The notes under the pieces: model-generated
What the model was told of the DNA's origin: nothing
The model's database searches: none
What the model saw: only the letters and a program-made list of their open reading frames with translations
Shown: positions 5,162 to 24,041 of the stretch, piece after piece
How positions within the stretch are numbered: position 1 is the stretch's first letter
Layout of the letters: each line of letters starts with the position of its first letter
Translations under genes and position numbers: made by a program
DNA from: Rubrivirga sp. SAORIC476
GTDB lineage: Bacteria > Bacteroidota > Rhodothermia > Rhodothermales > Rubricoccaceae
DNA length: 64,000 nucleotides
Assembly (NCBI RefSeq): GCF_002283555.1
Contig: NZ_MVOI01000007.1
Span: 1-64,000 of the forward strand
Direction: 5' to 3'

Positions 5162-6250
5162 GTGTCCGCTGACCTCGTCTCCCTCGGCGCCGACCATCTG
5201 CCCGCCGCGCTCGAAGCGGACGCTGAGTCCGCCCGCCGGTTCGCCGAGGCCGCCCGCTCCGACGCCACGCTCCGGGCGTACCGCTCCGACTGGGCCGACT
5301 TCGCGCTGTGGTGCGCAGGCCGCCAGCTGCCCGCGATGCCGGCCACGCCCGAGACCGTCGCCTTATATATAGCGTCTCGCGCGGAGGCCGGACCCGAGGG
5401 CGACGACGGGCGGCCGACGGCACCGCTGAAGGTGGCCACGCTTGAGCGGCGGATGGCGGCGATCTCCCAGGCCCACAAACTCGCCGGCGTCGAGAGCCCG
5501 GCGCTCCGCTCGCGCGAGCCGCTCCACTCCGTCTGGGCCGGCGTGGTCCGCACGCTCGGGACCGCGCGCGAGAAGGTGGCCCCGGCGCTCGCGGCCGACG
5601 TCGTCGCCATGGCCGCCGTGTGCGACGAGGCGGTCCGGCTGGCGGAGACGTTCCCCGACGACGCGGCGCCCGGCGCGGCGCTCCGGGCGCGACGGGACAA
5701 GGCGATGCTGCTGGTGGGCTTCGCCGCGGCGCTCCGGCGGAGCGAGCTCGCGGCCGTGCGGACGGAGCACCTCTCGTTCACGCCCGATGGGCTCCGGCTC
5801 CTGATCCCAAAGTCGAAAAGCGACCAGGAGGGAGCGGGCCAGGTCGTCGGCGTGGCCTACGGTTCGCGGGTGGAGACGTGCCCCGTGCGTGCGGTCCGGT
5901 CCTACCTCGCCGCGGCCTCGCGCGAGCTCGCGGACCAGGGGCGGCCCTCCCCCCTCTCGGGGCCGGTCTTCCGGTCGGTCGACCGCTGGGGGCGGCTCGG
6001 TCGGAAGGCGATCACGGGACGAACCGTCGCGAACGTCGTCAAGCAGCACGCCGAGGCGGCCGGGCTCGACCCCACGCTCTACGCCGGGCACTCGCTGAGG
6101 GCGGGGTTCGCGACCACGGCCGCGCGGGCCGGGAAGTCTGACCGGGCGATCCGGAAGCAGACGCGGCACAAGAGCGCCGCCATGCTGGCTGAGTACGTCC
6201 GCGAAGGGAGGCTCTTCGACGACAACGCGAGCGAGGGGATCGGACTCTGA
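5162..6250 (+). CDS. Tyrosine recombinase/integrase
   Basis: 362 aa from a GTG. It has an N-terminal SAM-like core-binding domain (about residues 20-115, TLRAYRSDWADFALWC) and a C-terminal catalytic domain. The expected catalytic residues are visible: Arg near 193 in ALRRSELAAVR, a Lys near 219 in IPKSKSDQ, H310-x-x-R313 in GHSLRAGF, H336 in RHKSAAM and nucleophile Tyr345 in AEYVREG. The protein is a stand-alone recombinase directly downstream of a dif-like site, suggesting plasmid multimer resolution or element integration. There is no excisionase beside it. Confidence 0.9.
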   Translation: MSADLVSLGADHLPAALEADAESARRFAEAARSDATLRAYRSDWADFALWCAGRQLPAMPATPETVALYIASRAEAGPEGDDGRPTAPLKVATLERRMAAISQAHKLAGVESPALRSREPLHSVWAGVVRTLGTAREKVAPALAADVVAMAAVCDEAVRLAETFPDDAAPGAALRARRDKAMLLVGFAAALRRSELAAVRTEHLSFTPDGLRLLIPKSKSDQEGAGQVVGVAYGSRVETCPVRAVRSYLAAASRELADQGRPSPLSGPVFRSVDRWGRLGRKAITGRTVANVVKQHAEAAGLDPTLYAGHSLRAGFATTAARAGKSDRAIRKQTRHKSAAMLAEYVREGRLFDDNASEGIGL

Positions 6251-6262
6251 GGGCGTCCCGGC

Positions 6263-8569
6263 CTACGTAGAGCGGAGCGTATCGAAGAGGGAGTCAACAG
6301 GATCGATCTGCTTTTGTGGATCGGACGATGGCGCCGGTTTCTTCTCTGGAGACGAGGTAGCCCGTTCGGCCTCGCGAGCGGCGCGCTCGACGTTCTCCTG
6401 TTCTGCGTCCGCCTTGGCCTGATCGAACGCTTCTACAACATCGTCTGGCAGCGTCCGGTCGAGTTTCTCTGCGATCTGGACGACCTGCTCTCGGAACGAC
6501 TCGATCATCTCGGGGTCGTCGCGGTAGTTGCTGACAGCGGCGTCAACCTCCTCTTTCGCTACTCGCTCGAATGCGTCGCTGACCGCTTCATTGAGCTGCT
6601 CTGTCAGCCTAGGGTCCCACCACCCCGCATCGGGCATCGCGTCGACGAGGCGCCCGAACGTCTCGGCGTCGTACACCTCGTCGCACGCGGTCTCGAAAGC
6701 CATGGCTTCGCTCTGTGGAGTGGAGATCCGGCCCTTGTACGGATGGTACTGGAGGGCGTCGAGCAGGTCGACGATCGCGTCCTCATGTGACTGACACAGT
6801 TCGATCTCTTCGTAAGCCGAACTCACGAGGGACTTAAGAACCGCCTCGGCATCCGCGCGCGGAAGGGCGCGGAAGGTGCGGACCGCGAACGCCGCTCGAC
6901 CCGTTGCGCCTTCTGGTGCTCGGCGGTGCGCCCGGCCCGGTTCTACGGAGAAGTCAAGTCTCGCCGGCTGGACGCCGAACGTCCGTATGAGGGCAGCACG
7001 TGCGTCCTCCGCGCTGGCGATGCGCCTCAGGACCAAGTAGTGCACCTGCTCGAAGAACACCGCGGTCGCCAGCAACGATCGGGCTTCGTGGGGCCGTCCT
7101 GCCAACCGAGCCTCGACGTAGTCCCGGATGGACGGGTTATGAAAACGGGCGACGTAGCGCCCGTTCACTTGATGGATCGTCGCGACGAACGTGCCGTCCA
7201 ATTCTCTCAGAGCCTCTCGGAAGTCCTCCGGGGCGGTCGGCTGGCGGTGTTGCCGAGAGCGGGCGGTATGGAGAGGCCAGAAGGCGCGCTCCAGATCGTC
7301 GAGGAGGACCCCGCTCGGCAGGGAGGCGAGCACGGTGAGCAAGTGCCGCGAGGCGAGCGACACATGGTTCTCGTAGGCGTGCCTCCAGAGTTCATCGGGG
7401 CGGTCGAGGGCGCGGACGAACCTCTCTGGAAAATGCGCCGGGGGCGTGTCCGGCTCGACGATCCCAGGCGTCGTCATCCAGTCGACGATGCGCGGGCTGA
7501 AGTTAGAATGCTCCACGATCTTCCGGTACGCCCGCTCCTCGAGGAGGGCCTCAGCGTAGGCCCGGTCCAACCCAGAGTGGAGGAGGTGGTTGTACAAGAT
7601 CCGGGCACGGTGGAGTGTGTCGTATCCCTCCAACTCCACCGTGCACTTGGCCCAGTCCACGCCCGGTCGGTCGAGCCGTTCGTGAGCCGCGCGGGCCTGG
7701 CGGAGGATGTACTCTCGCGTCGTGAGGATGAGGCGGGTGTTCTCAGAGCGCCGGACCTCTGCGAACAGCGCGAGCAGGTCGCGGTCCTCGTTCCGCTCCA
7801 ACGACTCCAGCGCCGTCATGCCGAGGAAGTCGTCGAAGTAGAGGGCTTGGTACTTCGACGTGTCGAGCACCTCCAGGGCTTCGGACACCGTCCGGTTCAG
7901 GACGACGAGCTCGTATCCCCGTCCGACGAGATCGGCGGCGAGGATCTCGGCGAGGGTCGTCTTCCCGACCCCTGGGATGCCAGCGATCACGCAGTAGTGG
8001 AGCTGGTCGAGAAGGCTTCGAGCTTCGCCGAGGCTCGGGTGCGGGACGTAGGTCCGGAGCGTGTCGGGGAGTCCGTCGGACAGAATCCTCGCTCGCTCGA
8101 AGAGTCCTCCGTTGAGCACTCGCTGGAGCACCGCCGATGAGGTGAGCCAGAGACGTGGGTGGCGCCTCTCGACGTGGGCGTGGTCCCGGAGCAGACCGTT
8201 GATTTCCTGTGGGCCGATCACGTCCGCCGGCGTTCGTATGAACGGGGAGAACGCCTCAATGACCTCGCGCTTCCTACCGGGGTTCATCGGCAACGACGTG
8301 ACGAACACGTACCGACCGAGGCTCAGAGACCGGACCTTTGGGACTTCTTGGGCGACGGCCTTCTTGAGATCGCTCCACGTCGACCCCGCGTAGTGCTTGC
8401 ACTGGACGACAGTGGTTCCTGCCCCCGACCGCGCGTACCGTAGGTCAACCCCGTCGTCGCGTCCCGCGGAGAACGACTCGAGCGGTACGCCCCACTCCTC
8501 CTGGAGAAGATCGCGCACCAGATCCTCGAAGTCGACGCTCGAGAGCGCGGAGAAGGTATATGCAGGCAT
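6263..8569 (-). CDS. Mrr-like nuclease fused to nSTAND NTPase (defence)
   Basis: 768 aa. Residues 1-115 form a restriction-endonuclease-like domain: DFEDLVRDLL, then GRDDGVDLR and VVQCKHY, the E/D/QxK active-site pattern of Mrr enzymes. A P-loop NTPase follows with Walker A GIPGVGKT at 197-204, Walker B ALYFDDF at 242-248 and sensor LILTTREYIL. This matches novel STAND (nSTAND3-type) NTPases. The C-terminal half is helical and may sense a phage product. The frame is open upstream to 8908, but ATG 8569 is chosen because the nuclease domain begins there. Predicted to degrade DNA on infection after NTPase-driven activation. Confidence 0.85.
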   Translation of the reverse strand: MPAYTFSALSSVDFEDLVRDLLQEEWGVPLESFSAGRDDGVDLRYARSGAGTTVVQCKHYAGSTWSDLKKAVAQEVPKVRSLSLGRYVFVTSLPMNPGRKREVIEAFSPFIRTPADVIGPQEINGLLRDHAHVERRHPRLWLTSSAVLQRVLNGGLFERARILSDGLPDTLRTYVPHPSLGEARSLLDQLHYCVIAGIPGVGKTTLAEILAADLVGRGYELVVLNRTVSEALEVLDTSKYQALYFDDFLGMTALESLERNEDRDLLALFAEVRRSENTRLILTTREYILRQARAAHERLDRPGVDWAKCTVELEGYDTLHRARILYNHLLHSGLDRAYAEALLEERAYRKIVEHSNFSPRIVDWMTTPGIVEPDTPPAHFPERFVRALDRPDELWRHAYENHVSLASRHLLTVLASLPSGVLLDDLERAFWPLHTARSRQHRQPTAPEDFREALRELDGTFVATIHQVNGRYVARFHNPSIRDYVEARLAGRPHEARSLLATAVFFEQVHYLVLRRIASAEDARAALIRTFGVQPARLDFSVEPGRAHRRAPEGATGRAAFAVRTFRALPRADAEAVLKSLVSSAYEEIELCQSHEDAIVDLLDALQYHPYKGRISTPQSEAMAFETACDEVYDAETFGRLVDAMPDAGWWDPRLTEQLNEAVSDAFERVAKEEVDAAVSNYRDDPEMIESFREQVVQIAEKLDRTLPDDVVEAFDQAKADAEQENVERAAREAERATSSPEKKPAPSSDPQKQIDPVDSLFDTLRST

Positions 8570-8589
8570 GCTACACGGCTGTCCAGGTG

Positions 8590-9438
8590 TCAGTCCCCGA
8601 CCACTGCCTCGACGAACAGCACGAGGTCGCCAACAGCGTCGGCCACGTAGGCGTCGTCTACCGCTCCTGCACGGAATCGTGATGCGCCGCGCGGGCCGAG
8701 GCCCTGCTCTGAGAGGAAGTCGGCCTGGAGCACGGCGAGCGCGGCCGCCAGCGCGGGGTGGTCGCCGAGGGCCACCCATCTCGCGGCGACGGCGTCGGGC
8801 CCGCCCGGCCAGTTCCGGACGACGTAGACGAGGTCGTAGGCGTCCTTCTCGCTCCCCCGGTTCCGAAACGCGATGGCCTTGAGGACGACGAAAGCGGCGG
8901 GGCCGCAAACCCGGACGGGGCGTTCGGCCGCGTCCCCATCGAGCGTGGTGCCGGAGACCACGCGGGCCTCGGCGTCGTCAAAGGCGAGGCGGAGGCCGAG
9001 CGCGCGGAGGGCGGCGAGGTCCTCGGTGAGGTGGAGCGTGCGGCCCCAGTCCTGCCCATCGGTCTCCGTCTCGTCGATGAGGAAGTCGACAACGACGGAC
9101 TCCTCGACGCGGGCATAGCGCCAACGCTGCTTGGTGGGGTTGCCCTTTTCGTTCGTGTCTGGTTCGAAGCCCCGGTCGCGGAGACGCTCGGCGAGCTCGT
9201 CGTAACGGTCCTCGTCAACGACGGCGAGGCGGATGCCGAGGTCGACGTCGACGGACCCGACGTGGGCGTCGTCGCGGGCGGCGGCCTCGGCCTGGTCGAC
9301 GAGGAGAGACGGGACCAAGCCACCCACGAGGACTACGTCGTCGTGGAAGTCGCCGAGGGCGACGAGAACCTGGAGGAGCGTCTGCCGGGTCCGTTCCAGC
9401 TGCTCCGGGGTGTAGTCGGTGGCGTAGGGAGTGCTCAC
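8590..9438 (-). CDS. AbiEii-like nucleotidyltransferase toxin
   Basis: 282 aa. The nucleotidyltransferase signature is VVLVGGLVPSLLVDQ followed by GSVDVDLGIRL (GG..., then D-x-D), as in AbiEii/MenT toxins of type IV systems. It continues with strand VVVDFLID and a helical segment FVVLKAIAFRNRGSEKDAYDLVYVVR typical of this fold. It overlaps the partner antitoxin gene by four bases (9435-9438). Family members transfer nucleotides to tRNA or bind GTP and arrest growth. The partner upstream in the operon is an AbiEi-like protein. Confidence 0.85.
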   Translation of the reverse strand: MSTPYATDYTPEQLERTRQTLLQVLVALGDFHDDVVLVGGLVPSLLVDQAEAAARDDAHVGSVDVDLGIRLAVVDEDRYDELAERLRDRGFEPDTNEKGNPTKQRWRYARVEESVVVDFLIDETETDGQDWGRTLHLTEDLAALRALGLRLAFDDAEARVVSGTTLDGDAAERPVRVCGPAAFVVLKAIAFRNRGSEKDAYDLVYVVRNWPGGPDAVAARWVALGDHPALAAALAVLQADFLSEQGLGPRGASRFRAGAVDDAYVADAVGDLVLFVEAVVGD

Positions 9439-10499
9439 GAGGCAGGCGGCGGCGGGTCAAGGGCGAGGGGCCGGAGCGCGTCCTGGAGTTCCGGGCCGCG
9501 CTCGGAATCGTGCTCGAGGTCGACGTACGTCTGAGCCGGGGCCACGCAGCGGAGGCCCTTGACGGGGCGGACGCCGTCGAAGACGCCGCGGTCGTCAGGG
9601 ACGAGGAGGCGGACGTTGGGCGCGCGGGTGTCCGTGCGGAACCCGGCCTCGGACGCGACGGCGACCGGGGTGGGGTGCTCGTCGCGCGTGACGTAGCACG
9701 TCACGAGCCGGAATCCGGCGGCCTGGGTGTAGGCCCAGGCGGCGGCGAGCCCCGTCAGCGCGTAGGAGATTCCGTCCCGGTCGAAGACGTCGGCCAGGCG
9801 GCGGGCGCGCTCCTCACCGGAGCGCCCCGGGAGGTGTCCCGTGATGACCTCGTGGCGGAAGGCGTTGCCGTCGGCCCAGGCGTCGAGGAGGCGGGCGGGG
9901 TCGTGGGCTGTGATTAGTCCGTCGTTGTCGCGGTAGACGAGGTCGGCGTTGAGGAGCCGTCGGACGAGTCGGCTCACGTGGCCCGCGTCGAGATCCGTGG
10001 CCTCGGCGAGCTCCTTCTGAGTCCAGGCGGCACCCGGCGACGCAAGGAGAGTGCGAGCAAGCCGGGCCGACTTCGGAGCGAACGCGTTGCGCGGCCGTCC
10101 GCGCGTCTCGAACGCATTGGGTCGGCCTGATACGTGGACGTAGAGGTCTCCGCCTGGCGTATGCGAGGTGACGTGGGCGTTCCCCGAGAGGTCGGCCCAC
10201 GCGACGCCCTCGGACTCGCAGCGCTCCGCACCAGAAGGGCTCATGTGGGGGACGACGACGAGCGGGGCGGCGCCGTCCATGGACTGCCTACGGAGGTGGG
10301 CCAGCGCCGCCTCGATGGACGTGGGACTCGGGTCCCCCTTCACTTCGACGAGGAACACGTGGGGGCCGACATGCACAACGGCGTCCAGGCCACCCCTCCC
10401 CTCCTCTACGTCGGCATGTGACGAGGCTCCCGTCCAGCGCTCGAAGAGCTGGGCGAGTGCGCGGGGGGCGTCGGCTTCGGAGAACGGCTGGGAGGACAC
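9435..10499 (-). CDS. AbiEi-like antitoxin with nuclease-like N-terminus
   Basis: 354 aa from a GTG. Residues 1-120 resemble a PD-(D/E)XK fold (GGLDAVVHVGPHVFLVEVKGD; D..E-x-K pattern). A winged helix follows (ARLARTLLASPGAAWTQKELAEATDLDAGHVSRLVRRLL, quoted in part) and then an AbiEi-like C-terminal region (YALTGLAAAWAYTQAAGFRLVTCYV). Type IV antitoxins repress their own promoter through the winged helix and counter the toxin without tight binding. The nuclease-like part is unusual compared with short AbiEi proteins. A TTGCC-N6-GGCAA palindrome sits 22 bases upstream of the start codon. Confidence 0.75.
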   Translation of the reverse strand: MSSQPFSEADAPRALAQLFERWTGASSHADVEEGRGGLDAVVHVGPHVFLVEVKGDPSPTSIEAALAHLRRQSMDGAAPLVVVPHMSPSGAERCESEGVAWADLSGNAHVTSHTPGGDLYVHVSGRPNAFETRGRPRNAFAPKSARLARTLLASPGAAWTQKELAEATDLDAGHVSRLVRRLLNADLVYRDNDGLITAHDPARLLDAWADGNAFRHEVITGHLPGRSGEERARRLADVFDRDGISYALTGLAAAWAYTQAAGFRLVTCYVTRDEHPTPVAVASEAGFRTDTRAPNVRLLVPDDRGVFDGVRPVKGLRCVAPAQTYVDLEHDSERGPELQDALRPLALDPPPPAS

Positions 10500-11643: not shown

Positions 11644-11994
11644 TCAGCACCATGTCACCCGCCCGTCGCGGAGGATGAAGTGGCTCCGGCAGCCGCGGTG
11701 CCGCCAGACGGACGGCGAGAGCGTCGGGACGCCGCCATGAGACGTAAGCCGCCAGCGCGGGCGGTCGTCGGGAAGCAGGCTGAGCTGGATCGTCTCGCCG
11801 CACCCGCACGGGCACGAGAGGACGGCGTACCAGAGGTGGCCGCCCTCGCCGACGGCGACGATCTTGAGTGGATCGACCGCCTCGGGGACTTCGAAGGCGT
11901 GGTCGAGCCGGTAGCGCGGCGGCTCCGTTGGCTGGGGCCGAAACCGGCCGACGATCCACTGGAACGCACGGCCGAAAAGATTCCAGACTCTCAT
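11644..11994 (-). CDS. DUF6527-type metal-binding protein
   Basis: 116 aa. The N-terminus is amphipathic and basic, then residues 52-116 hold the metal-ligand set C61-P-C63-G-C65-G-E67, H86, H99, C102 and H105 (CPCGCGETIQLSLL ... SHGGVPTLSPSVWRHRGCRSHF). This agrees with DUF6527, a Cys/Glu/His/His zinc-binding family found beside prokaryotic E1/E2/JAB genes. It overlaps the E1 gene by ATGA (11991-11994), implying translational coupling. It may act as an E3-like factor or substrate adaptor, but this is inference from position. Confidence 0.8.
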   Translation of the reverse strand: MRVWNLFGRAFQWIVGRFRPQPTEPPRYRLDHAFEVPEAVDPLKIVAVGEGGHLWYAVLSCPCGCGETIQLSLLPDDRPRWRLTSHGGVPTLSPSVWRHRGCRSHFILRDGRVTWC

Positions 11995-13445
11995 GCTGCG
12001 CGCCGGGTAGCGGTTGCCGAGAACTCCGGCATCCCCAGGAGCGGAGAGGTGTCGCCGCGCCCGACGAGCTTCGCCAGTGCGACATCCGGCTCGCCGTCTG
12101 CGTCAGAAAGGAACCGCGACTGCGAGAGGCTGATGCCGTTCCGGGCAAACTTTCGGTTGTCGTCGTCGCGGAACGGGTGGAGCCGAGCGAGCAGCTCGTT
12201 AACCGCGAGCGAGGCGTAGAACGTGTTCACGCTGACGACGGCCGGGCTCCCCTCCTGTACGCCGATCACGTACTTCTCCTCGAGCTGGGACTCGTACAGC
12301 TCGGGGTCGGCGCGGCGGAGGTGGGCGGCCTGGAGCGCGGTGGCCGAGTAGGCCCCTCGGCTGAGGAGGCTCGACCCGCCAGGTTGGAGGTAGTGGACCG
12401 TCCCGTGGACGCCGTCGACGCCGCCCTGGCCGTCGGCGTCAAGGCGTACGCCGACATCAAGATACGGGAGCGCGTAGTGCGTCGCGATCCGGTTCATAAG
12501 GTCCCGACCGTCGACCGAGTCCACACAGCCGAAGAGGACGTCGGCGAGCGCGACGCGGCGGACCACGTCGGCGTCGAAGAGCGAGCTCTGGATCGGGACA
12601 ACGCGCGTGCCGAGGTCCATGCGTCGAACGGCGTCCGCGAGCACCTCGACCTTCGGTCGACCGATGTCGGCACGGGTGGCGTTTAGGATCCGGTTGAGGT
12701 TCCGCTCCTCGACGAGGTCGGGGTCGACGAGGATGATCTCGCCGACACCGAGGCGGGCGAGCATTTCGACGACGGGGCTCCCGGTGCCGGAGGCGCCGAC
12801 GACGGCGACCGAGAGGCGCGAGAGCGCGGCCGTCGTCCCCACCCCGAACGCCTGCGCCGTCCGCTCGGCGAAGCCTGCCACGCGGCCGAGCGCCCCGTCG
12901 CACACGGCGTCGCGGTGGAAAACCCAGAGGTCGTCGCCGGCGACGAGGACGCTTTCGACGGGGACGAACCGCGCGCCGCCCTCGCCGTCGTCGTAGGCCG
13001 CACGGGCGAAGACCTCTCCGCCCGGAAGCATGACAGCGCTCGCGTGCGGGCCGGGGTCGTCGGTCCGCCCCATGACGGACGGGAAGAGGTCGGCGTCCGA
13101 GGCGTCGTCGGTCTCGCTGAAGGCGCGGTAGCCGCCGGGGTGCGAGTGAACCTTGAGGACAGCGAGCCCGCGCCGCTCGGCCCGATCGAACACGTCGAGG
13201 AACGGCTCGACGGGCCACGAGACGAGGACCGGCGTCCGCTCGTGGCACAGGTCGTAGGGGACGGGGATGATGTCGCGGGCGGTGAGGACGTGGCGCGAGC
13301 CCCAGGGTCCCTCGTCGGCGTCGCCGATGCGGCGCCCGCAGAGGACGAGCGCGACGGCCTCGTTCCCGTCGCCGGGGAACAGGTGGTCGTAGAGGGCCGA
13401 GTGCTGACGGCCTGAGAAACGGAGGGACACAGAGGAGGTACTCAT
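11991..13445 (-). CDS. JAMM peptidase-E1 (ThiF) fusion of a ubiquitin-like pathway
   Basis: 484 aa. Residues 15-165 form a JAB/MPN domain with a complete JAMM motif: E29, then H100-S-H102-P with seven residues to S110-x-x-D113; it could trim Ub-like precursors or deconjugate. Residues 205-425 form a ThiF/E1 adenylation domain: glycine loop GASGTGS (217-223), DPD at 241, RILN, K265 and GCVDS (306-310). No cysteine occurs after C307, so the usual E1 catalytic Cys is missing; serines lie where the Cys loop is expected (PGGSSLLSRG). It overlaps DUF6527 by four bases and lies 45 bases after the Ub-E2 gene. Confidence 0.88.
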   Translation of the reverse strand: MSTSSVSLRFSGRQHSALYDHLFPGDGNEAVALVLCGRRIGDADEGPWGSRHVLTARDIIPVPYDLCHERTPVLVSWPVEPFLDVFDRAERRGLAVLKVHSHPGGYRAFSETDDASDADLFPSVMGRTDDPGPHASAVMLPGGEVFARAAYDDGEGGARFVPVESVLVAGDDLWVFHRDAVCDGALGRVAGFAERTAQAFGVGTTAALSRLSVAVVGASGTGSPVVEMLARLGVGEIILVDPDLVEERNLNRILNATRADIGRPKVEVLADAVRRMDLGTRVVPIQSSLFDADVVRRVALADVLFGCVDSVDGRDLMNRIATHYALPYLDVGVRLDADGQGGVDGVHGTVHYLQPGGSSLLSRGAYSATALQAAHLRRADPELYESQLEEKYVIGVQEGSPAVVSVNTFYASLAVNELLARLHPFRDDDNRKFARNGISLSQSRFLSDADGEPDVALAKLVGRGDTSPLLGMPEFSATATRRAA

Positions 13446-13490: not shown

Positions 13491-14588
13491 TTAGGCGCGG
13501 CGGGGGCGCTTGACGAACTCCTGCGCGAGCCACTCCTCGACGAGCGCGAGGTGGGTCGAGACGTCGTCGAGGCCGGGCCGCCACGGGTTCTGGGCCGTCC
13601 GGTGGCGGCTCCAGCGCTGGAACGGGGTCCCGCCGATGACGAGCGTCGCGAGCGCGCCGATGGGCTGGCGGTCGGCGCGGACGACTGGCGGGTCGAAGTA
13701 GACCATGTCGATCTGGACCGTCGGGTATCCCGGCGGGATCATGAGCGCGACGGTCGCCGTGCGGGCCTGATAGCCGTCCGGAAGCGGGAAGTCGTGGACG
13801 AGGAGGAACTGGCGGCGGCCGTCGACAACGGTCTCCCAGGGGAGCCCGCGGGCGTCTAGGTGCTCGACGTCGTGCTCGGGGAGCGTGACCTCGCGCCGGA
13901 GCGTGGGGGCGGCGACGGCCCCCTCGTGCTGGTCGAGGGGGACCGTCATGAACCGCTCGACGCCGGGCGCGCAGAACGAGACGGACTCGTCGTAGCCAAC
14001 CTTCTTGGCCTGACCGCCGCGGAGCTTCTGGTCGAGCCGGAACCGGGTGACGGGGTTCTTGCCCGCGAGCGCGAGGATCTCGCGGCCCGTCATGGCCGGG
14101 CGGTCGACGACGTGGCGCTGGCGGTCGACGCGGATGCGGTAGCGCTTGGCGCGGGGCGTCTCGTGGCCGTGCTCGGCGCACGCCTCGATGTCGACGGGCT
14201 CGTCGGCCTCGACGACGACCTCGGCCGTCGGCGCGGCGGCCTTAGCCGCCTCGAGGTCGGCGAGGACGCGGGCCTTGTCCGGGTGGGCGCGGCCCGCCGC
14301 GAGCGGCTCGCCGGTCGTCTGCTGGAACGCCCAGTCGAACCCGCCGTCCTCATCGGGGACGAGCTCGAACTCGGTCTCGGCGAGGCGGTCGGGCGCGCCG
14401 TCGAGCGTGCGGTCGTTGAGCGGGCTCTCGGCCGCGCGGCCGCGGAAGACGTAGAGCCCTGCGAGGCAGTCGCCGAAGTCGGCGTAGGGCTCGCCGGAGG
14501 TGCAGAGCGTGTCGCCGTCGGCGTTCAGGAGCTCCCAGTAGAATTGGGTGTCGTCGGAGGTGTGGAGGACGCGGAACGTGGCGTTCAT
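13491..14588 (-). CDS. YegP repeats-multiubiquitin-E2 fusion
   Basis: 365 aa from ATG 14588. There are four parts. Residues 5-60 and 72-125 are two DUF1508/YegP-like repeats (QFYWELLNADGDTLCTSG; GGFDWAFQQTTGEPLAAGR). Residues 148-217 are a multiubiquitin-type beta-grasp domain (YRIRVDRQRHVV, MTGREILALAG, VERFMTVP). Residues 228-360 are a prokaryotic E2 family E-like domain (LPEHDVEHLDARGLPWE, FPLPDGY, MIPPGYP, FQRWSRH at 324-329, then DDVSTHLALVEEWL). The E2 part has no cysteine; Ser327 in WSRH is a candidate nucleophile. There is no C-terminal di-glycine. Followed by the JAMM-E1 gene, so it is predicted to be conjugating enzyme and modifier in one chain. Confidence 0.85.
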   Translation of the reverse strand: MNATFRVLHTSDDTQFYWELLNADGDTLCTSGEPYADFGDCLAGLYVFRGRAAESPLNDRTLDGAPDRLAETEFELVPDEDGGFDWAFQQTTGEPLAAGRAHPDKARVLADLEAAKAAAPTAEVVVEADEPVDIEACAEHGHETPRAKRYRIRVDRQRHVVDRPAMTGREILALAGKNPVTRFRLDQKLRGGQAKKVGYDESVSFCAPGVERFMTVPLDQHEGAVAAPTLRREVTLPEHDVEHLDARGLPWETVVDGRRQFLLVHDFPLPDGYQARTATVALMIPPGYPTVQIDMVYFDPPVVRADRQPIGALATLVIGGTPFQRWSRHRTAQNPWRPGLDDVSTHLALVEEWLAQEFVKRPRRA

Positions 14589-14630: not shown

Positions 14631-14663
14631 TCTCCAGTCGTGAGCACGACTCCAAACCGGAAG
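14631..14663 (-). promoter_or_regulatory. 33-bp shared promoter/operator element, copy 1
   Basis: On the plus strand it reads TCTCCAGTCGTGAGCACG, six variable bases, AACCGGAAG. The second copy is at 19774-19806; 27 of 33 positions are identical. It lies 43-75 bases upstream of the Ub-E2 start codon, read on the minus strand. It contains TCGTG-AG-CACGA, an imperfect dimer-like site, and a run of six A/T pairs just beyond. Probably the target of the cluster's own sigma factor or a cognate regulator. Confidence 0.75.
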
Positions 14664-14695: not shown

Positions 14696-17600
14696 CTACT
14701 TCGGACAGATGAAGTAGAACGGGCAGCGCGGGCACTCGCGAGGGCTGGGCTCTGCGTGGAAGTCGCCGTCGAGGATGCCCTCGATGGCCTTGGCGTACTT
14801 CTCGATCCGTCCGTTCCGCTTCCGGTCGGTCATCTCCATCGGCGTCCGCTCTCCGGTCTCTAGTTGGATCGCCTTAATGGCGTAGTCCCCGTCGGCCACG
14901 GTCGCAGCCTGATGCAGAAGGGCGTAGACGGGCTTGTCCGGTTCCGACTTGCTGAGCCGCCCGGTCTTCCATTTCTGGACGACCGTCTGCCCTCCGACTG
15001 TCGAGACCACATCGGGCCTCACCGTCACGGTCCCATTTCGCAGGTCCACCGTCCACTCAGGGCGAATCTCACCGTCATCGGCAGCAAAGGCGGCCGCGGC
15101 GATCCGCCCGGCCTCAGCTCGGAGGCGGACAGCGTAGGGGCTCTTGCCGAGGCGGTCGTGAGACCATGCCTCATCGAGTATGGTGGCGATGGCCTCCGGC
15201 GTGGGCATTCGCCCCTCGGTCTGCTCGTCAAGGATGTATCGTACTGCGCGCCGGGTCGCCCGGTGGAAATCGAAGTACGCGCTCCCCTCCCCTCTCCCAT
15301 CGAGCCGCAGGACGTGCGAATAGGCGTACTGCCGCGGACACGTGAGGTAGGTGTCGAGCTCTGACCTGGAGAACGGGTCGTCGGGGTCGCGCACCGGCGG
15401 AGCGATAGCCGACGCTGCCGGCGGGTCCAGGGGCGGTTCGTCCGTCCACCGAGCCGGAGCATCGGGGAGAGATGCTGGGACGAGTCCCAGGAGCGTGGAA
15501 GGGTCTCGGTTTGTGTTGATATAGCGCTCTGCACGCGAGAGGCAGAGCGCGTCCCGGGCACGAGAGGCCGCGACGAAGAACAAGCACTCCTCCTCGTCGT
15601 CGTGGAGGTCCCTCAGCGCCGCCCCGACTAGGCCGTCCGGCGGCGGGCACGTGGGCGTCCGGAACGTGTTGGGGAAGTACGTCTTGGCCAGGGCGGGGAC
15701 GTGGACAACGTCGAACTCGAGCCCCTTGCTGGCGTGGACGGTCATGAGCCGGACGGCGTTGATGTCGTCGGCCCACTCGGGCACCTGTCGGACCTGACGG
15801 TCTTGGTTCTGGAGGCTGAGGCGACGGACGTAGTCGAGGAACGCCCGGCGGGAGTAGCCGGGCGCGGCCCCCTCACGGTCGCGGTGACCGAGCGCGAGTG
15901 CGAGGAGTTGATAGACGGCGAGCCGCCGCTGCTGCGTTTCGACCTCAGATCCACCCTCCAGCCGGCGGACGTACTCGCTCTGCTCGAAGAGGTAGTGCGA
16001 GAGGAGGTCCCAGACGGGCACGTTGGGATGGATGCCCGCCACGTGACTCGAGAGGGCGTCGAGGCCCCAGACTCCTGCGTCCGTCAACCCGTCGACGCCA
16101 GATGCCCTTGGCAGCGCTTGGAGGGGGGAGCGTCCGTGCTCCTCGGCCCAGGCCAGCACGCGATCGACGTCGGCACGAGGAACGTCGTATTCAGGAAAGG
16201 ACGCCACGCGGACGAGGCCGCCCCACCCACCCCCGCTCACGAGGCTCACGAGCGAGAGGAGGTCTCGGACCTCGCCCCGCTCGAACACGTTGCCGAGGTA
16301 GAGCATGGGCACACCCTCCTTCTCCAGGACGCGCGCGTAGCGCTCCAAGAGCGTGTGGGTCCGGCAGAGCACGGCCTGGCTCTTCCACTGCGGCTCGCCG
16401 TCAGCGCCAGTGCTCGCGCGGTCGCGGACGGCCCGAGCGAGCCCGAGCCCCTCGGCCTCTAGGGTCGTCGCGACGCTGAGCGACACCTCCCCCGGCGCAT
16501 CGTCGCGGTTAACGTCCCACGGCTCGAACGCCTCTGGTGGGGCCGCGCACATCGATGTAGCGATTTCGGACACGGCGTCGACGATGGCCGGTCGAGACCG
16601 ATAGTTGCACGAGAGACGCTCGACGCGGAGCGAGGGATAGTCCTCGCGGAGCCGGTCGAAGTTGGCCGCCGACGCCCCCCGCCAGCGGTAGATGGACTGG
16701 CGGGGGTCCCCGACGATCCAGAGGCCCCGGCCCGCGCCCGCGACCGCTTTCAGCAAGCGTCCCGACGCGCGGTTGACGTCTTGGAACTCGTCGACGAGGA
16801 CGTGAGCGAAGTCGGACTCAACGCGCTCCCGGACCCCCTCGTCCGACTCCAAGAGGAGGACGGACCGGTAGACGAGGTCGCCGAGGTCAATGGCCCCCGC
16901 GTCGTGGAGCAGACCTTGGTAGGCCGCGTACGCGCGCGCGACGGCCTGGGCCTTCTCGGCCGCCTCGGTCTCCTTATCGGTCGTCGCTGACGCCCGCATC
17001 GCGTTGGCTAGCTCGGCGTACCGCTCAGGACCTACGACCTCGTCCTTCGCCCGCGAGATCGCCGATAGGATGTCCGGGAGGTTGCGGCCGGGGTCCGACA
17101 GTGCCTCGTAGGGACCGAGGTCGATCTCGCCCAAGGCCCCTTCGAGCAGGACGGAGGCGTCAACGGGGTCGAGGACCCTCGGCCGGAGGGGGAGCCCGGC
17201 CTCCTCGTTGTACTTGTGGAGGAGCTCGAGCCCGAAGGCGTGGAAGGTCCCCATCCATACCTTGTGGGCGTCGTCGCCGAGCGCGACCGATACCCGCCCG
17301 CGCATCTCGTCGGCCGCGCGGTTGGAGAAGGTGAGCACGAGAACGCGCTCCGGGTCGACGCCGGACGAGACGAGGTGGGCGACCCGGCCGGTGAGCGTGC
17401 GGGTCTTCCCCGTGCCGGGTCCCGCGACCACCAGGACGGGACCGGCGGCCTTCGCGGCACGCTCCTGGCTCGTGTCGAGGGAGAGGGTCTCGACCCCGTC
17501 CCCCCTCGCCTCGGGCGTGCGATCGGAGTCAGGCGCCGTGCCGATCGACTCAGCGACCAGCACGGCCCGTCCGAGCTGGTGGAACACGAGCGACCGGCTG

Positions 17601-18091
17601 ACACCGACGCGAGAGGCGATGGCCGCGGCGGAGAGTCCGGCGTTGTGCCACTGGCGAAGCCGGTCGGTAGGGAGGAGGAACTCGCGAGCGAAGACGTTGG
17701 CCTCGCGCTCGGCCCGTTCGCGGGGGCTGTACCCCTCGACGCGGGCGACGCCTCCGACGGCCCCCTGGTCCTCGGACGCTTGCTCGTCGATCTCGCTGGC
17801 GAGGCAGGCGTACCCGCCTGTCTCCAACCAGACGTGAGCGAACTCATGGGCCTGGACGAACCGCTGCTGTTCGGGCGGCGCGTCCGCGTTGTACCAGATC
17901 ACCTTCCGGTCCACGTCGAGCTTCCCCTCACCCTTCTCCAACAGAGGATTGTCCGCCTCGACCCCGCGAGAGCGGTGCTCCGTGTGCATCTCCGCGGCCT
18001 CAAGGAGAGAGTCGGCCGTGTAGTCGTCGGTGCCTACGAGCTCCCGGTGGCGGGCTCGTGCGAGGCGTCGGATATCGCTCCAAGCGTTCAC
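14696..18091 (-). CDS. ImmA/IrrE peptidase-UvrD helicase-PD-(D/E)XK nuclease fusion
   Basis: 1131 aa. Residues 1-180 are an ImmA/IrrE-type zinc peptidase: HEFAH at 82-86 and the downstream Glu helix REREANVFAREFLLP (about 128-141), with a short HTH-like segment after it. Residues 205-860 are a UvrD/PcrA superfamily 1 helicase: AGPGTGKT at 223-230, LVLTFSNRAADEM, GTFHAFGLELL, LVDEFQDVN, VGDPRQSIYRWRGA, MTVHASKGLEFDVVHV. The last 250 residues resemble the AddB/Cas4-like nuclease with an Fe-S cluster: TCPRQYAYSH and the closing CPRCPFYFICPK. All three activities seem intact. It follows the sigma and partner genes at 30 bases. Confidence 0.9.
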   Translation of the reverse strand: MNAWSDIRRLARARHRELVGTDDYTADSLLEAAEMHTEHRSRGVEADNPLLEKGEGKLDVDRKVIWYNADAPPEQQRFVQAHEFAHVWLETGGYACLASEIDEQASEDQGAVGGVARVEGYSPRERAEREANVFAREFLLPTDRLRQWHNAGLSAAAIASRVGVSRSLVFHQLGRAVLVAESIGTAPDSDRTPEARGDGVETLSLDTSQERAAKAAGPVLVVAGPGTGKTRTLTGRVAHLVSSGVDPERVLVLTFSNRAADEMRGRVSVALGDDAHKVWMGTFHAFGLELLHKYNEEAGLPLRPRVLDPVDASVLLEGALGEIDLGPYEALSDPGRNLPDILSAISRAKDEVVGPERYAELANAMRASATTDKETEAAEKAQAVARAYAAYQGLLHDAGAIDLGDLVYRSVLLLESDEGVRERVESDFAHVLVDEFQDVNRASGRLLKAVAGAGRGLWIVGDPRQSIYRWRGASAANFDRLREDYPSLRVERLSCNYRSRPAIVDAVSEIATSMCAAPPEAFEPWDVNRDDAPGEVSLSVATTLEAEGLGLARAVRDRASTGADGEPQWKSQAVLCRTHTLLERYARVLEKEGVPMLYLGNVFERGEVRDLLSLVSLVSGGGWGGLVRVASFPEYDVPRADVDRVLAWAEEHGRSPLQALPRASGVDGLTDAGVWGLDALSSHVAGIHPNVPVWDLLSHYLFEQSEYVRRLEGGSEVETQQRRLAVYQLLALALGHRDREGAAPGYSRRAFLDYVRRLSLQNQDRQVRQVPEWADDINAVRLMTVHASKGLEFDVVHVPALAKTYFPNTFRTPTCPPPDGLVGAALRDLHDDEEECLFFVAASRARDALCLSRAERYINTNRDPSTLLGLVPASLPDAPARWTDEPPLDPPAASAIAPPVRDPDDPFSRSELDTYLTCPRQYAYSHVLRLDGRGEGSAYFDFHRATRRAVRYILDEQTEGRMPTPEAIATILDEAWSHDRLGKSPYAVRLRAEAGRIAAAAFAADDGEIRPEWTVDLRNGTVTVRPDVVSTVGGQTVVQKWKTGRLSKSEPDKPVYALLHQAATVADGDYAIKAIQLETGERTPMEMTDRKRNGRIEKYAKAIEGILDGDFHAEPSPRECPRCPFYFICPK

Positions 18092-18121: not shown

Positions 18122-18841
18122 TCAGCAGGCCTCGTCGAGGATGCGGAGCCAGGCTGCCTTGGCTTCGTCTGTCATGTCTCGGGCGTCTTCAATTCCTTGC
18201 CGGAACGGCTTTGTGACGGCCTCGGGCTTGTGGTCGCGAGACGACGATTGCCCCGCAGCGATCATCGGGGGCTGGGTGATGCTCTGCCGGACGGCCGGGA
18301 GAGGGGGAATCGGGTCGGGGTTGAAGGTCCGGATGTGGTCGAGGATCGCGCGCGCGGTGCAGTCCTTCTCCTCGACCGAGTCGAATGTCCAGCACCCCTT
18401 AGAGAGGTTGAGAATGAAGGAGTAGCCCAGGCCAGATTGGTCCTGAAAGTCGAACGTGTCGATGCCGAGCCGGATCAACATGTCCTCAAACCGTTCGGCC
18501 GGGGAGCCAGGGGCGCCACCGGCCGAGGATGCGAGTTGGGGAACGGCGGGGCTGGGCGGAGCACCGGACTCCGCGCTAGGGACAGGGTCTGTGGTTGTGT
18601 TCTGCTGGAGGAGGCTCCGCACGGCGTTGAGGGAGGCTTCAACATCTGATTCCTCCCCGTCGGTGTCGCCCAACTCCGCATGCTCCATCGCGCTCCACTG
18701 GACGGTGAAGTCAGCGAGCGCGTCGCGGTACTCGGGGAATCGACGAGCGTAGTCGTTCAGGGCCTCGTAGCTAGGACCCTCAGCGGCGTACTGCTCCAGC
18801 ACGTCGTCGAGCGACGGGCGAGCGTGGTTCTGTGTGGTCAT
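18122..18841 (-). CDS. Hypothetical partner protein of sigma factor/ImmA module
   Basis: 239 aa, no family named with confidence. The N-terminus SLDDVLEQYAAEGPSYEALNDYARRFPEYRDALADFTVQW (quoted for its pattern) looks like the short helical region often found in the gene between a sigma factor and an ImmA/IrrE gene. A Ser/Pro-rich linker (residues 85-115) and a C-terminal part with SFILNLSKGCWTF follow. Its start overlaps the sigma stop by ATGA. By position it could be the anti-sigma factor or the substrate cut by the downstream peptidase; that is inference. Confidence 0.65.
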   Translation of the reverse strand: MTTQNHARPSLDDVLEQYAAEGPSYEALNDYARRFPEYRDALADFTVQWSAMEHAELGDTDGEESDVEASLNAVRSLLQQNTTTDPVPSAESGAPPSPAVPQLASSAGGAPGSPAERFEDMLIRLGIDTFDFQDQSGLGYSFILNLSKGCWTFDSVEEKDCTARAILDHIRTFNPDPIPPLPAVRQSITQPPMIAAGQSSSRDHKPEAVTKPFRQGIEDARDMTDEAKAAWLRILDEAC

Positions 18842-19707
18842 GACTGCTTTAGGATGTCTCGGAGCTTCTTCTCGGCCTTGCGAAGCCAGCTCGAGATGGT
18901 TCGTGGTGACTTGCCAAAATGGGAGCTCAGAGTGACGGCTTCTGCGTCATTGGCCTCAATCTGCCACTCATCGAAGTAGTGGAGTCGCAGAACATCCCGG
19001 TACGGGGTTGGGTGGTTGGGGAGATCGCGCACTGCCGCCCGGAGGAGATCGTCGTCGTGCTCCTGCGTGAGGGCCTCCCATGGCGTGACCGACTCCCAAC
19101 CACCGAGCGGGGTCGCCATCTCAGCGGGAGCGTCGTCGTCCGCAGGCTCCCCGTTCATGGTCGAGACATCAACCGACTGGCGCTCGCGATCCCGTTTATC
19201 CCCGGCAACGCGGGTGACGTCGGCCGTCCGGTACCGGAGGAACTTCCAGAACCGGGATTGCGCGAAGTCGCTCTTGTCGCTCTCCAGGTCGAGGATTCCG
19301 CCCTCTCGACGGTCTTCTCCTCGGACCTTGCTGCCCCCAAATACGCGAAAGAGAACCTCCTGGACCATCTCGGTCACCCGCTCCTCGTCGTCCTCGTAGC
19401 GGAACCCGACCTCGCGCATCCACTTCTTGATGGTGCCATCGGTTCGCTTTACGAGCACGTCGCATAGCTGCCCCTCAATGAAGGAGTCCCCTCGGAGCTT
19501 GTAGTAGCGGATCAGGAAGACAAGAGCCTCCTCTCCGACAAACAGGGCGTGATCCTTGTCCCGGACCCTCGCTCGCTTGACGAGAGTGTCTCGCGAGATG
19601 GAAAGGGCCGCCTGGATGTGGGCCTCGGTCTCTGCGGTACGCTCGTACCCGTTCCGGGTGAGTTGGGGGAGGACGTGGACGGGGGGATCAGTAGTAACGA
19701 TGGTCAT
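18838..19707 (-). CDS. Sigma-70-family (ECF-like) RNA polymerase sigma factor
   Basis: 289 aa. The C-terminal region 4 HTH is clear: LPNHPTPYRDVLRLHYFDEWQIEANDAEAVTLSSHFGKSPRTISSWLRKAEKKLRDIL (quoted in part), with an acidic linker before it. The N-terminal half has region-2-like helices (ALVFLIRYYKLRGDSFIEGQLCDVLV; VTEMVQEVLFRVFGG; FWKFLRYRTADVTR). It is longer than standard ECF factors of about 200 aa. It is the first gene of the eight-gene cluster and has the 33-bp element 67-99 bases upstream, suggesting autoregulation. Confidence 0.8.
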   Translation of the reverse strand: MTIVTTDPPVHVLPQLTRNGYERTAETEAHIQAALSISRDTLVKRARVRDKDHALFVGEEALVFLIRYYKLRGDSFIEGQLCDVLVKRTDGTIKKWMREVGFRYEDDEERVTEMVQEVLFRVFGGSKVRGEDRREGGILDLESDKSDFAQSRFWKFLRYRTADVTRVAGDKRDRERQSVDVSTMNGEPADDDAPAEMATPLGGWESVTPWEALTQEHDDDLLRAAVRDLPNHPTPYRDVLRLHYFDEWQIEANDAEAVTLSSHFGKSPRTISSWLRKAEKKLRDILKQS

Positions 19708-19773
19708 CGAAGGAGGAATCAGACGGGGTCGTGGGCTAGATCATGGGACCGGGTAGAGTGAGGGTGCGTGGGT

Positions 19774-19806
19774 CTCCAGTCGTGAGCACGGATGCGAACC
19801 GGAAGC
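19774..19806 (-). promoter_or_regulatory. 33-bp shared promoter/operator element, copy 2
   Basis: Same element as at 14631-14663: an 18-base identical block TCTCCAGTCGTGAGCACG, six differing positions within a six-base window, then AACCGGAAG. A GCGAAAAAAGTTT stretch follows on the plus strand, matching the A-run beside copy 1. It lies upstream of the sigma gene. Confidence 0.75.
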
Positions 19807-22255: not shown

Positions 22256-22256
22256 G

Positions 22257-24041
22257 TCACGGTCGGTGGGGAGGTCGCCCTCCCCACCGCCGATTCAGAA
22301 CCGGGCGTGCGACTTTCACCGCACCCGGCTCCTCGACCCGACGGCCCTTGTCATGGGCACCGCTCGTGGCGTGTTCGGCGTCGTGGCAGTGCCCATGCAT
22401 CAGGGCCAGGTTGCCCGTGCGGTTGTTCCGCCGGTCCCTGTCCCTGTGGTGGACCTCCACGGCGTCGCCGTCCTGGAAGTAGAGTCCGCAGTACTCGCAG
22501 CGTCCGCCTTGCCGCCTGCGCAGCGCCAGCGCCCGGGACCGCCCGGCGTAGCCCTTCTGGAAGCGAAGGGACCAATACGGCCAGTCTCCGTCGAACGGGC
22601 TCTTGCTCCCTCTCACCTTCGCGTGACGCACGATGGGCGTCAGGCCGTGGTGAGTGAGCGTGTCCTGTTCTCCTCGGAAGGTGTAGCCGTCCCAATACCT
22701 CCCCATCAGCGCCCGTTTGGCCGCTTTGGGGTGCTTCCGGTAGCTCCACCGGCGGAGCTTGTGGGCGAGCTGGTGCTCGACCCTGGCGAACGTGGCCTTC
22801 GAGCTGACGTGCCGGTAGTACGCGGTCCACCCCCGGACGACGGGGTTGAGCCGACGCACCACCGCGTCCGCGTCGAGGTGCCACGACCGCTTGAGGATCT
22901 GCCCAAGCTGATCAAGGTGCCGCTTCTGCGCTCCCTTGCTCGGCGTGATCGCGGTCTCAAAGGGGAGGGTCCGGCCGTGATTGTCTCTCGCGGCCCTGTG
23001 CCTTCCGACGTAGTGCTGCCGGAACGAGAACCCGAGAAAGTCAAAGCCAGCCCGCGCTCCGTCCTCCCCATCGAGGGTCGCCCCATCGGGGGGCGCCCCG
23101 TCGAGGGTGTGGACGACGCGGGTTTTCTCCTCGTTGAGACGTAGACCTGCCTTCGCAAGCCACGCGACGACCGCCCCCCGGATCTCCTCCATCGTCTCCC
23201 GGTCCTGGTGCAGGATCACGAAGTCGTCGGCGTATCGGATCACGGCCGCCTTCTTGCGGTCCGTGTCGAAGCGCGTTCGGATCTCGGTCTCCAGCCCGTG
23301 CAGGGCGACGTTGGAGAGAAGGGGCGAGATGACCCCGCCCTGTGGGGTGCCCGATGCCGTGGGGCTCCACCGGCCGTCGCGTACGACGCCGGACTTGAGC
23401 CACTCCCGGATCAGCCGCTCGTACGCCGGGATGGTCCCCAGCTTGCGAACGAGGTAGTCGTGGTCGATGTGGTCGAAGCAACCGCTGATGTCCGCGTCCA
23501 AGACGTACTTCGCCTTCGACGTGATGGAGTTGGCGATCGCGTCTACCGCATCGTGAGCGCTCCGTCCTGGTCGGAACCCGTAGCTGTTCGGCTCGAACTT
23601 GGCCTCCCACTCGGGTTCCAGCCCCAGTTTCACCAGGGCTTGCAGGGCTCGGTCTCGCATGGTCGGGATTCCGAGCGGTCTCTCCGATCCGTTGGCCTTC
23701 GGGATGTACACCCGTCGGGCCGGATCGGCCTTCCACTCGGGATGACCCAGGGACTCCGCGAGGGCGAGGCGCTTGCGTGGGGGGACGTTCTTGACGCCGT
23801 CCACCCCGGCCGTGCGCCGGCCTCGGTTGTCCTGAGTCACCTTCCTGACCGCGAGGAGCCTCGCGTTCCAGGACCGCAGCATCAAACGCTGCAAGTTGCG
23901 AACCTGCGTCCAGTCGCCACGATCTGCGGCTCGGTAGATACGCACCTGCAACCGGAACACGCCGCGCTGGACTCGCGCCCAGTCGGTGTCGCTCCAACCT
24001 TCCGTATGTCGCTCTTCGGGCTGTCGCCGTTCGGGCTCCAT
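22257..24041 (-). CDS. ltrA: Group II intron reverse transcriptase/maturase with HNH
   Basis: 594 aa. The order is RT domain (VYIPKANGSERPLGIPTMRDRALQ, GFRPGRSAHDAV, LDADISGCFDHIDH, GTPQGGVISPLLSN, catalytic YADD at 270-273, LGFSF), maturase X domain (residues about 370-470), and C-terminal HNH endonuclease with zinc cysteines (RCEYCGLYF...VEVHHRDRDRRNNRTGNLALMHGHCHD; quoted in parts). All catalytic motifs appear intact, so splicing and retrohoming could be active. The last 30 residues are encoded by domains V and VI of the intron, and the stop codon ends one base before the intron boundary. Confidence 0.92.
   Translation of the reverse strand: MEPERRQPEERHTEGWSDTDWARVQRGVFRLQVRIYRAADRGDWTQVRNLQRLMLRSWNARLLAVRKVTQDNRGRRTAGVDGVKNVPPRKRLALAESLGHPEWKADPARRVYIPKANGSERPLGIPTMRDRALQALVKLGLEPEWEAKFEPNSYGFRPGRSAHDAVDAIANSITSKAKYVLDADISGCFDHIDHDYLVRKLGTIPAYERLIREWLKSGVVRDGRWSPTASGTPQGGVISPLLSNVALHGLETEIRTRFDTDRKKAAVIRYADDFVILHQDRETMEEIRGAVVAWLAKAGLRLNEEKTRVVHTLDGAPPDGATLDGEDGARAGFDFLGFSFRQHYVGRHRAARDNHGRTLPFETAITPSKGAQKRHLDQLGQILKRSWHLDADAVVRRLNPVVRGWTAYYRHVSSKATFARVEHQLAHKLRRWSYRKHPKAAKRALMGRYWDGYTFRGEQDTLTHHGLTPIVRHAKVRGSKSPFDGDWPYWSLRFQKGYAGRSRALALRRRQGGRCEYCGLYFQDGDAVEVHHRDRDRRNNRTGNLALMHGHCHDAEHATSGAHDKGRRVEEPGAVKVARPVLNRRWGGRPPHRP
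22298..22331 (-). ncRNA. Group II intron domain V
   Basis: 34 nt on the minus strand. GAGCCGGGTGCGGTGAAAG is followed by TCGCACGCCCGGTTC, forming the canonical domain V hairpin with a GAAA tetraloop and the expected internal bulge. It overlaps the 3' end of the maturase reading frame. Confidence 0.92.

Follow-up and report, generated by a model that had tools for sequence, protein, structure and literature searches.

A Bub (type 6e) operon in Rubrivirga sp. SAORIC476: plausible serine chemistry on the E2, a zinc-site relic in the E1 and a candidate upstream control module

Introduction

How could a ubiquitin-like (Ubl) protein be activated and passed on by an E1 and an E2 that both lack a cysteine where one is expected? 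This question is raised by a locus of Rubrivirga sp. SAORIC476, located in a 64,000-nucleotide stretch of contig NZ_MVOI01000007.1 that is referred to here as the window. An earlier note on this DNA had proposed that the two enzymes lost thiol chemistry together and now operate through serines, namely Ser327 in the E2 and a serine of the segment PGGSSLLSRG in the E1.

Operons of this kind were described as type 6e by Iyer, Burroughs and Aravind in 2006, and comprise a JAB+E1 protein, a beta-grasp protein, an E2-like domain devoid of cysteine and a Cys/His Zn-finger-like protein (PMC1779556). The E2-like domain, either fused to the Ubl or stand-alone, was read as likely inactive, given the missing cysteine (PMC1779556). 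The name Bub is now in use, hundreds of such operons are known, and a putative role in immunity is ascribed to them, although according to the same source Bub has yet to be shown to protect against phage (PMC13373217, which cites Ye et al. 2026, doi 10.1038/s41594-025-01696-1).

Organization of the operon and its proteins

The genes of the locus follow the standard order, with a fused Ubl-E2 gene, then JAB-E1 and then DUF6527. The first gene (13491..14588 (-)) encodes a BubAB-like fusion of 365 aa, in which two YegP-like repeats and one ubiquitin-like domain stand N-terminal of a Prok-E2_E domain. The N-terminal region (14196..14588 (-), residues 1-131) is of the DUF1508/YegP (UPF0339) type, with a Pfam match to DUF1508 at residues 13-44 and a model that resembles the YegP structures 2k49 and 2k8e (Z 8.0-8.4). 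The Multi_ubiq domain (13920..14144 (-), residues 149-223; PF14452 at residues 150-216, E 8.3e-15) ends in LDQHEG and is fused to the Cys-free E2 domain (13509..13904 (-), residues 229-360; PF14462 at residues 236-356, E 6.7e-37). PADLOC 2.0.0 and NCBIfam hold no model for the Ubl-E2 protein, and a viral-contig scan with this single fusion protein as the query returned no relative.

The second gene (11991..13445 (-), 484 aa) encodes a BubCD-like fusion of JAB and E1 (ThiF) domains (PF14464 and PF00899). Its JAB/JAMM domain (13071..13403 (-), residues 15-125), fused N-terminal to the E1, has E29, H100, H102, S110 and D113 intact; the JAMM residues are conserved, D113 at 100%, and the adenylation residues of the E1 are intact as well. 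The third gene (11644..11994 (-), 116 aa; PF20137, E 3.7e-25) encodes the DUF6527 protein, with a conserved, Zn-finger-like set of residues formed by C61-x-C-x-C65, S95 and C102-x-x-H105. In 84 DUF6527 sequences, CPCGC, W81, P94-S95 and C102-x-x-H105 are nearly invariant.

The same layout is found on plasmids of Pontibacter, Roseomonas and Citrobacter freundii (pOZ181), and in most of the 79 further loci obtained by a genome scan seeded with QRWSRH. Sequence searches of the PDB matched the E2 part to Citrobacter BubB (9EAV and 9EAE, E 5.5e-25 and 6.8e-25) and the E1 to Citrobacter BubCD (9EA4, E 2.9e-85). Structural comparison gave a similar picture, with the modelled E2 part superimposing on 9EAE at Z 20.9 (rmsd 1.3 over 127 residues) and the E1 AlphaFold model (mean pLDDT 93.5) matching five BubCD entries at Z 42.8-44.6, followed by ThiF. 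The Citrobacter system (9EA4, 9EA5, 9EA8, 9EAE and 9EAV) thus has in common with the window the Ubl-E2 fusion (in pOZ181), the JAB-E1 fusion, DUF6527, the QRWSRH motif, the tyrosine of the E1 loop and the fold. The differences lie in the N-terminus of the fusion, which carries YegP-like repeats and one Ubl here and is longer and multi-Ubl in Citrobacter, and in the kind of upstream control genes.

The fusion of Ubl and E2 is not in itself a departure from the family. It is present in 46 of 97 loci, the two parts being separate in the other 51, and also in Citrobacter freundii pOZ181 (L010), whose fusion of 362 residues fits the numbering of the solved chains BubA(155-229) and BubB(234-361); it is therefore a usual layout and not a new one. 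No defining difference separates the window operon from type 6e (PMC1779556). All parts of a Bub (type 6e) operon are present in the locus, as its domains and gene order show. What the earlier note called a further version is accordingly a further member of the family, with a fusion that is commonplace and a chemistry that is not new. From the standpoint of chemistry, the locus contributes a single further sequence to a family for which structures already exist.

An invariant serine and histidine in the E2

As the earlier note had it, the E2 domain in the translation of complement(13491-14588) contains no cysteine, and its motif reads W326-S327-R328-H329 (13602..13613 (-)), with S327 as the candidate nucleophile. 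The conservation of this motif was evaluated in 22 E2s, the window's included, which were gathered by profile or tblastn without using the motif, in order to avoid circularity. S327 and H329 are invariant in all 22, down to about 20% identity, and the S-x-H motif appears among them as WSRH, FSIH, LSFH and FSWH. Both residues are likewise present in 46/46 E2s of the set A4, including sequences only about 20% identical. Since the genome scan was seeded with QRWSRH, the serine conservation that it returned was left out of the evidence.

The lack of cysteine is unremarkable when taken alone, because it applies to 42 of the family's 101 E2s. Another conserved cysteine, which the earlier note had held would overturn its reading, was sought in these 101 E2s, and no alignment column reaches 15% Cys; the catalytic cysteine of a canonical thioester pathway is thus absent. 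The Cys-based bacterial pathways (types 6a, 6b and 6d; CBASS Cap2 and Bil) follow the same E1, E2 and JAB logic, and the structural neighbours of the window E2 include Cap2 (7TQD, Z 7.4). Nevertheless, types 6a, 6b and 6d conserve the E2 cysteine (PMC1779556), whereas the family of the window conserves none. When the E2 alignment was set against four eukaryotic E2s (the sequence of UBE2D2 agreeing with the PDB), the match stopped at the YP motif, covering just the N-terminal half. The profile comparison gave a probability of 2.8% without reaching the active site, and thus yielded no residue-level correspondence between S327 and the E2 cysteine.

The alignments support a serine at the active site of the E2, and the invariance of Ser327 and His329, together with the lack of a conserved cysteine, makes a serine oxyester on this enzyme plausible. 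Oxyester intermediates have reportedly been described by Ye et al. For the E2, the earlier interpretation is sound, although essentially it was known before. The missing cysteine was reported already in 2006.

A different explanation, which we regard as improbable, is that the E2 domain is dead, serving as an RWD/UEV-like scaffold while the E1 adenylate modifies targets directly. It agrees with the missing cysteine, with the inactivity inferred by Iyer et al. 2006 (PMC1779556), and with the presence of the Tsg101 UEV among the structural neighbours. However, an inactive E2 fold of this type would carry no constrained nucleophile, whereas in this family the serine and histidine never vary, even among sequences about 20% identical, a constraint for which a scaffold would have no use. 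The solved BubCD-BubB-BubA complex also argues against it.

A zinc-site relic and an invariant tyrosine in the E1

The E1 of the next gene (complement 11991-13445) has no cysteine downstream of GCVDS, as had been observed before, and equally none after C307. The proposal that PGGSSLLSRG occupies the E1 cysteine loop was not supported by alignment of the window E1 to E. coli MoeB and ThiF, which was achieved by bridging through diverged family members. In the bridged alignment, S359 and S362 of this segment (S359-L-L-S362, 12360..12371 (-)) fall on C172/C175 of MoeB and C169/C172 of ThiF, which form the first half of the structural zinc site. The catalytic C184 of ThiF falls instead on V393, adjoining Y392, so that the E1 crossover loop is devoid of the catalytic cysteine of a canonical thioester pathway. 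Moreover, nine diverged E1s retain CxxC at positions 359/362, and four of them (L095, L111, L112 and L113) clearly retain a second CPxC-type zinc motif, the pairs being CPVC, CPIC, CPVC and CPCC. As aligned, S359 and S362 are what is left of the zinc site of MoeB and ThiF, and do not belong to a catalytic-Cys loop. Whereas E. coli ThiF and MoeB share with the window E1 the adenylation fold (Z 27.4 and 26.9) and a conserved CxD motif, the window E1 has lost both zinc CxxC motifs and the cysteine at the C184 position.

These results bear directly on a scheme with serine on both enzymes, in which an oxyester formed on the serine of PGGSSLLSRG is passed to Ser327 of the E2. Such a scheme can draw on the invariant E2 serine and on the occurrence of S, T or C at position 359 in 90 of 95 E1s. 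Yet five E1s from intact operons (L002, L013, L070, L081 and L089) have none of these residues at either 358 or 359, the 359/362 pair coincides with the zinc cysteines of MoeB and ThiF, and the nine E1s with CxxC, four with the second zinc motif, point the same way. The AlphaFold model adds that the segment is well ordered (block pLDDT ~93-97), the flexible loop being that around Y392-G399 (block pLDDT 62). We therefore consider serine on both enzymes to be very improbable. The zinc-pair alignment, the five E1s lacking S/T/C and the identity of Tyr392 as the invariant residue make a serine nucleophile in PGGSSLLSRG very unlikely; the idea of two serine-based enzymes is supported for the E2 and very probably wrong for the E1.

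Tyr392 (12270..12272 (-)), beside the position of ThiF C184, is found in 95/95 E1s and corresponds to Y370 of Citrobacter BubCD. The title of entry 9EAV, BubCD(D104A/Y370F)-BubB-BubA(155-229), carries the substitution Y370F, which indicates that the depositors singled out this tyrosine. Tyr392 may be a carrier of the Ubl or a catalytic helper. The analysis consequently corrects the notion of a serine in an E1 cysteine loop and directs attention to this residue.

Across the sampled Prok-E2_E systems, neither catalytic site has a conserved cysteine, and the loss of both, as far as the alignments reach, is family-wide and old. The earlier phrase that thiol chemistry was lost together therefore describes the two sites well, except that the loss is not local to this operon. 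Ordinary thiol chemistry through a cysteine placed elsewhere, for example in the Ubl domain, at E1 C307 or in the DUF6527 cluster, is hardly credible: C307 is indeed invariant (95/95 E1s) and the DUF6527 cysteines are conserved, but C307 aligns with MoeB C128/ThiF C125 in the adenylation domain and not with ThiF C184, the DUF6527 pattern CxCxC...CxxH is of the metal-site type, and the E2 has no conserved Cys column. A complete Bub (type 6e) operon that would employ an oxyester on Ser327 of the E2, and not on Ser359 of the E1, is the best explanation, and one that we hold with considerable confidence.

A predicted processing site and a proposed mechanism

Where Ubl and E2 are encoded separately, a conserved glycine is the very last residue of the Ubl in 31 of 51 operons, usually as ...TEG; most of the remaining ones are a few residues longer, and few have tails of 8-15 residues. 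The Ubl-E2 fusions retain the same glycine, followed by a short linker. This glycine is position 229 of the pOZ181 fusion and Gly223 of the window fusion (13920..13922 (-)), where the sequence reads LDQHEG223|AVAAP and the model is disordered (residues 219-226, pLDDT <50). Because 31 of the 51 stand-alone Ubls terminate there, a cut after Gly223 is predicted, which would generate the mature C-terminus of the Ubl. Activation of the Ubl would require cleavage of the fusion at this predicted position, and the analysis supplies a precise candidate site for processing of the Ubl-E2 fusion.

From the anatomy of the operon, which is what was observed, we infer both a five-step route and a physiological role. 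A protease, probably the JAB domain of the operon itself, would first cleave after Gly223, releasing free Ubl and E2. The C-terminus of the Ubl would then be adenylated by the E1. Ser327 of the E2 would next receive the acyl group and hold it as an oxyester, having taken it straight from the adenylate or by way of a step requiring Tyr392, in both cases bypassing Ser359 of the E1. The E2 would hand the Ubl to a target, from which the JAB domain could later take it off again. Such an operon probably serves phage defence or a stress response, and is probably switched by a regulator of the DNA-damage type.

Upstream genes and a shared promoter-like element

The adjacent gene on the upstream side of the operon (14696..18091 (-), 1131 aa) encodes a three-part fusion, in which an M78 (IrrE/CapP-like) peptidase is combined with UvrD helicase and PD-(D/E)XK nuclease domains, and is putatively part of the same functional unit. 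The same gene row is headed by a Sigma-70 region-4-like regulator (18838-19707 (-)), a weak match, and a small partner protein (18122-18841 (-)). The M78-UvrD fusion also adjoins Bub operons in L014, L024, L032 and L080, as well as in Agrobacterium (L117). In Agrobacterium pQ15_94_1, a gene of 1132 aa with both motifs occurs in an identical six-gene order, headed by a regulator homologous to that of the window (24%, E 2e-7). Among the Bub loci searched, a homologue of the window regulator was found only in these Agrobacterium upstream genes. The M78 part of the fusion had no other match at E 1e-6 among 296 genomes of the phylum.

The two ends of this arrangement share a DNA element of 33 nt, promoter- or operator-like, with the sequence CTTCCGGTT...CGTGCTCACGACTGGAGA. 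One copy precedes BubAB (14631..14663 (-)) and a near-copy, 88% identical, precedes the sigma-like gene (19773..19805 (-)). A related copy precedes BubAB of L014, and none was found in shuffled sequence. It is conceivable, albeit doubtful, that in this lineage the Cys-free Bub operon is linked to DNA damage through a control module outside the published CapW, CapH+CapP and CapK+CapS, formed by the sigma-like factor, the small partner and the CapP-like M78-UvrD-PD-(D/E)XK protein, with one promoter element common to the sigma-like gene and the BubAB gene. In novelty this lead surpasses the Cys-free operon itself, and the conserved M78-helicase-nuclease gene, together with the shared element, could reveal the switch of Bub.

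A different and diverged sigma-like family, of about 190 aa, occurs beside approximately 22 other Bub loci, mostly divergent to the operon (for example, L009 2981-3583 (-)); a single member, that of L034, passes the Sigma70_r2 cut-off. Several of these loci also encode a protein of about 136 aa and an M78 peptidase.

Wider surroundings in the window

Beyond the operon, the window encodes an 881-aa protein (6263-8908 (-)) that matches the PADLOC candidate PDC-S73 (E 4e-137). Weak matches to PDC-M21B and PDC-M05A adjoin it at 8590-10499, and a tyrosine recombinase is located at 5162-6250. In view of these matches and the recombinase, the Bub operon seemingly lies inside a defence-gene cluster. 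Farther along, a group II intron with a reverse transcriptase/maturase (TIGR04416, above the cut-off) occupies 22256-24041 (-), and its RNA matches Rfam RF00029 at 22256-22333.
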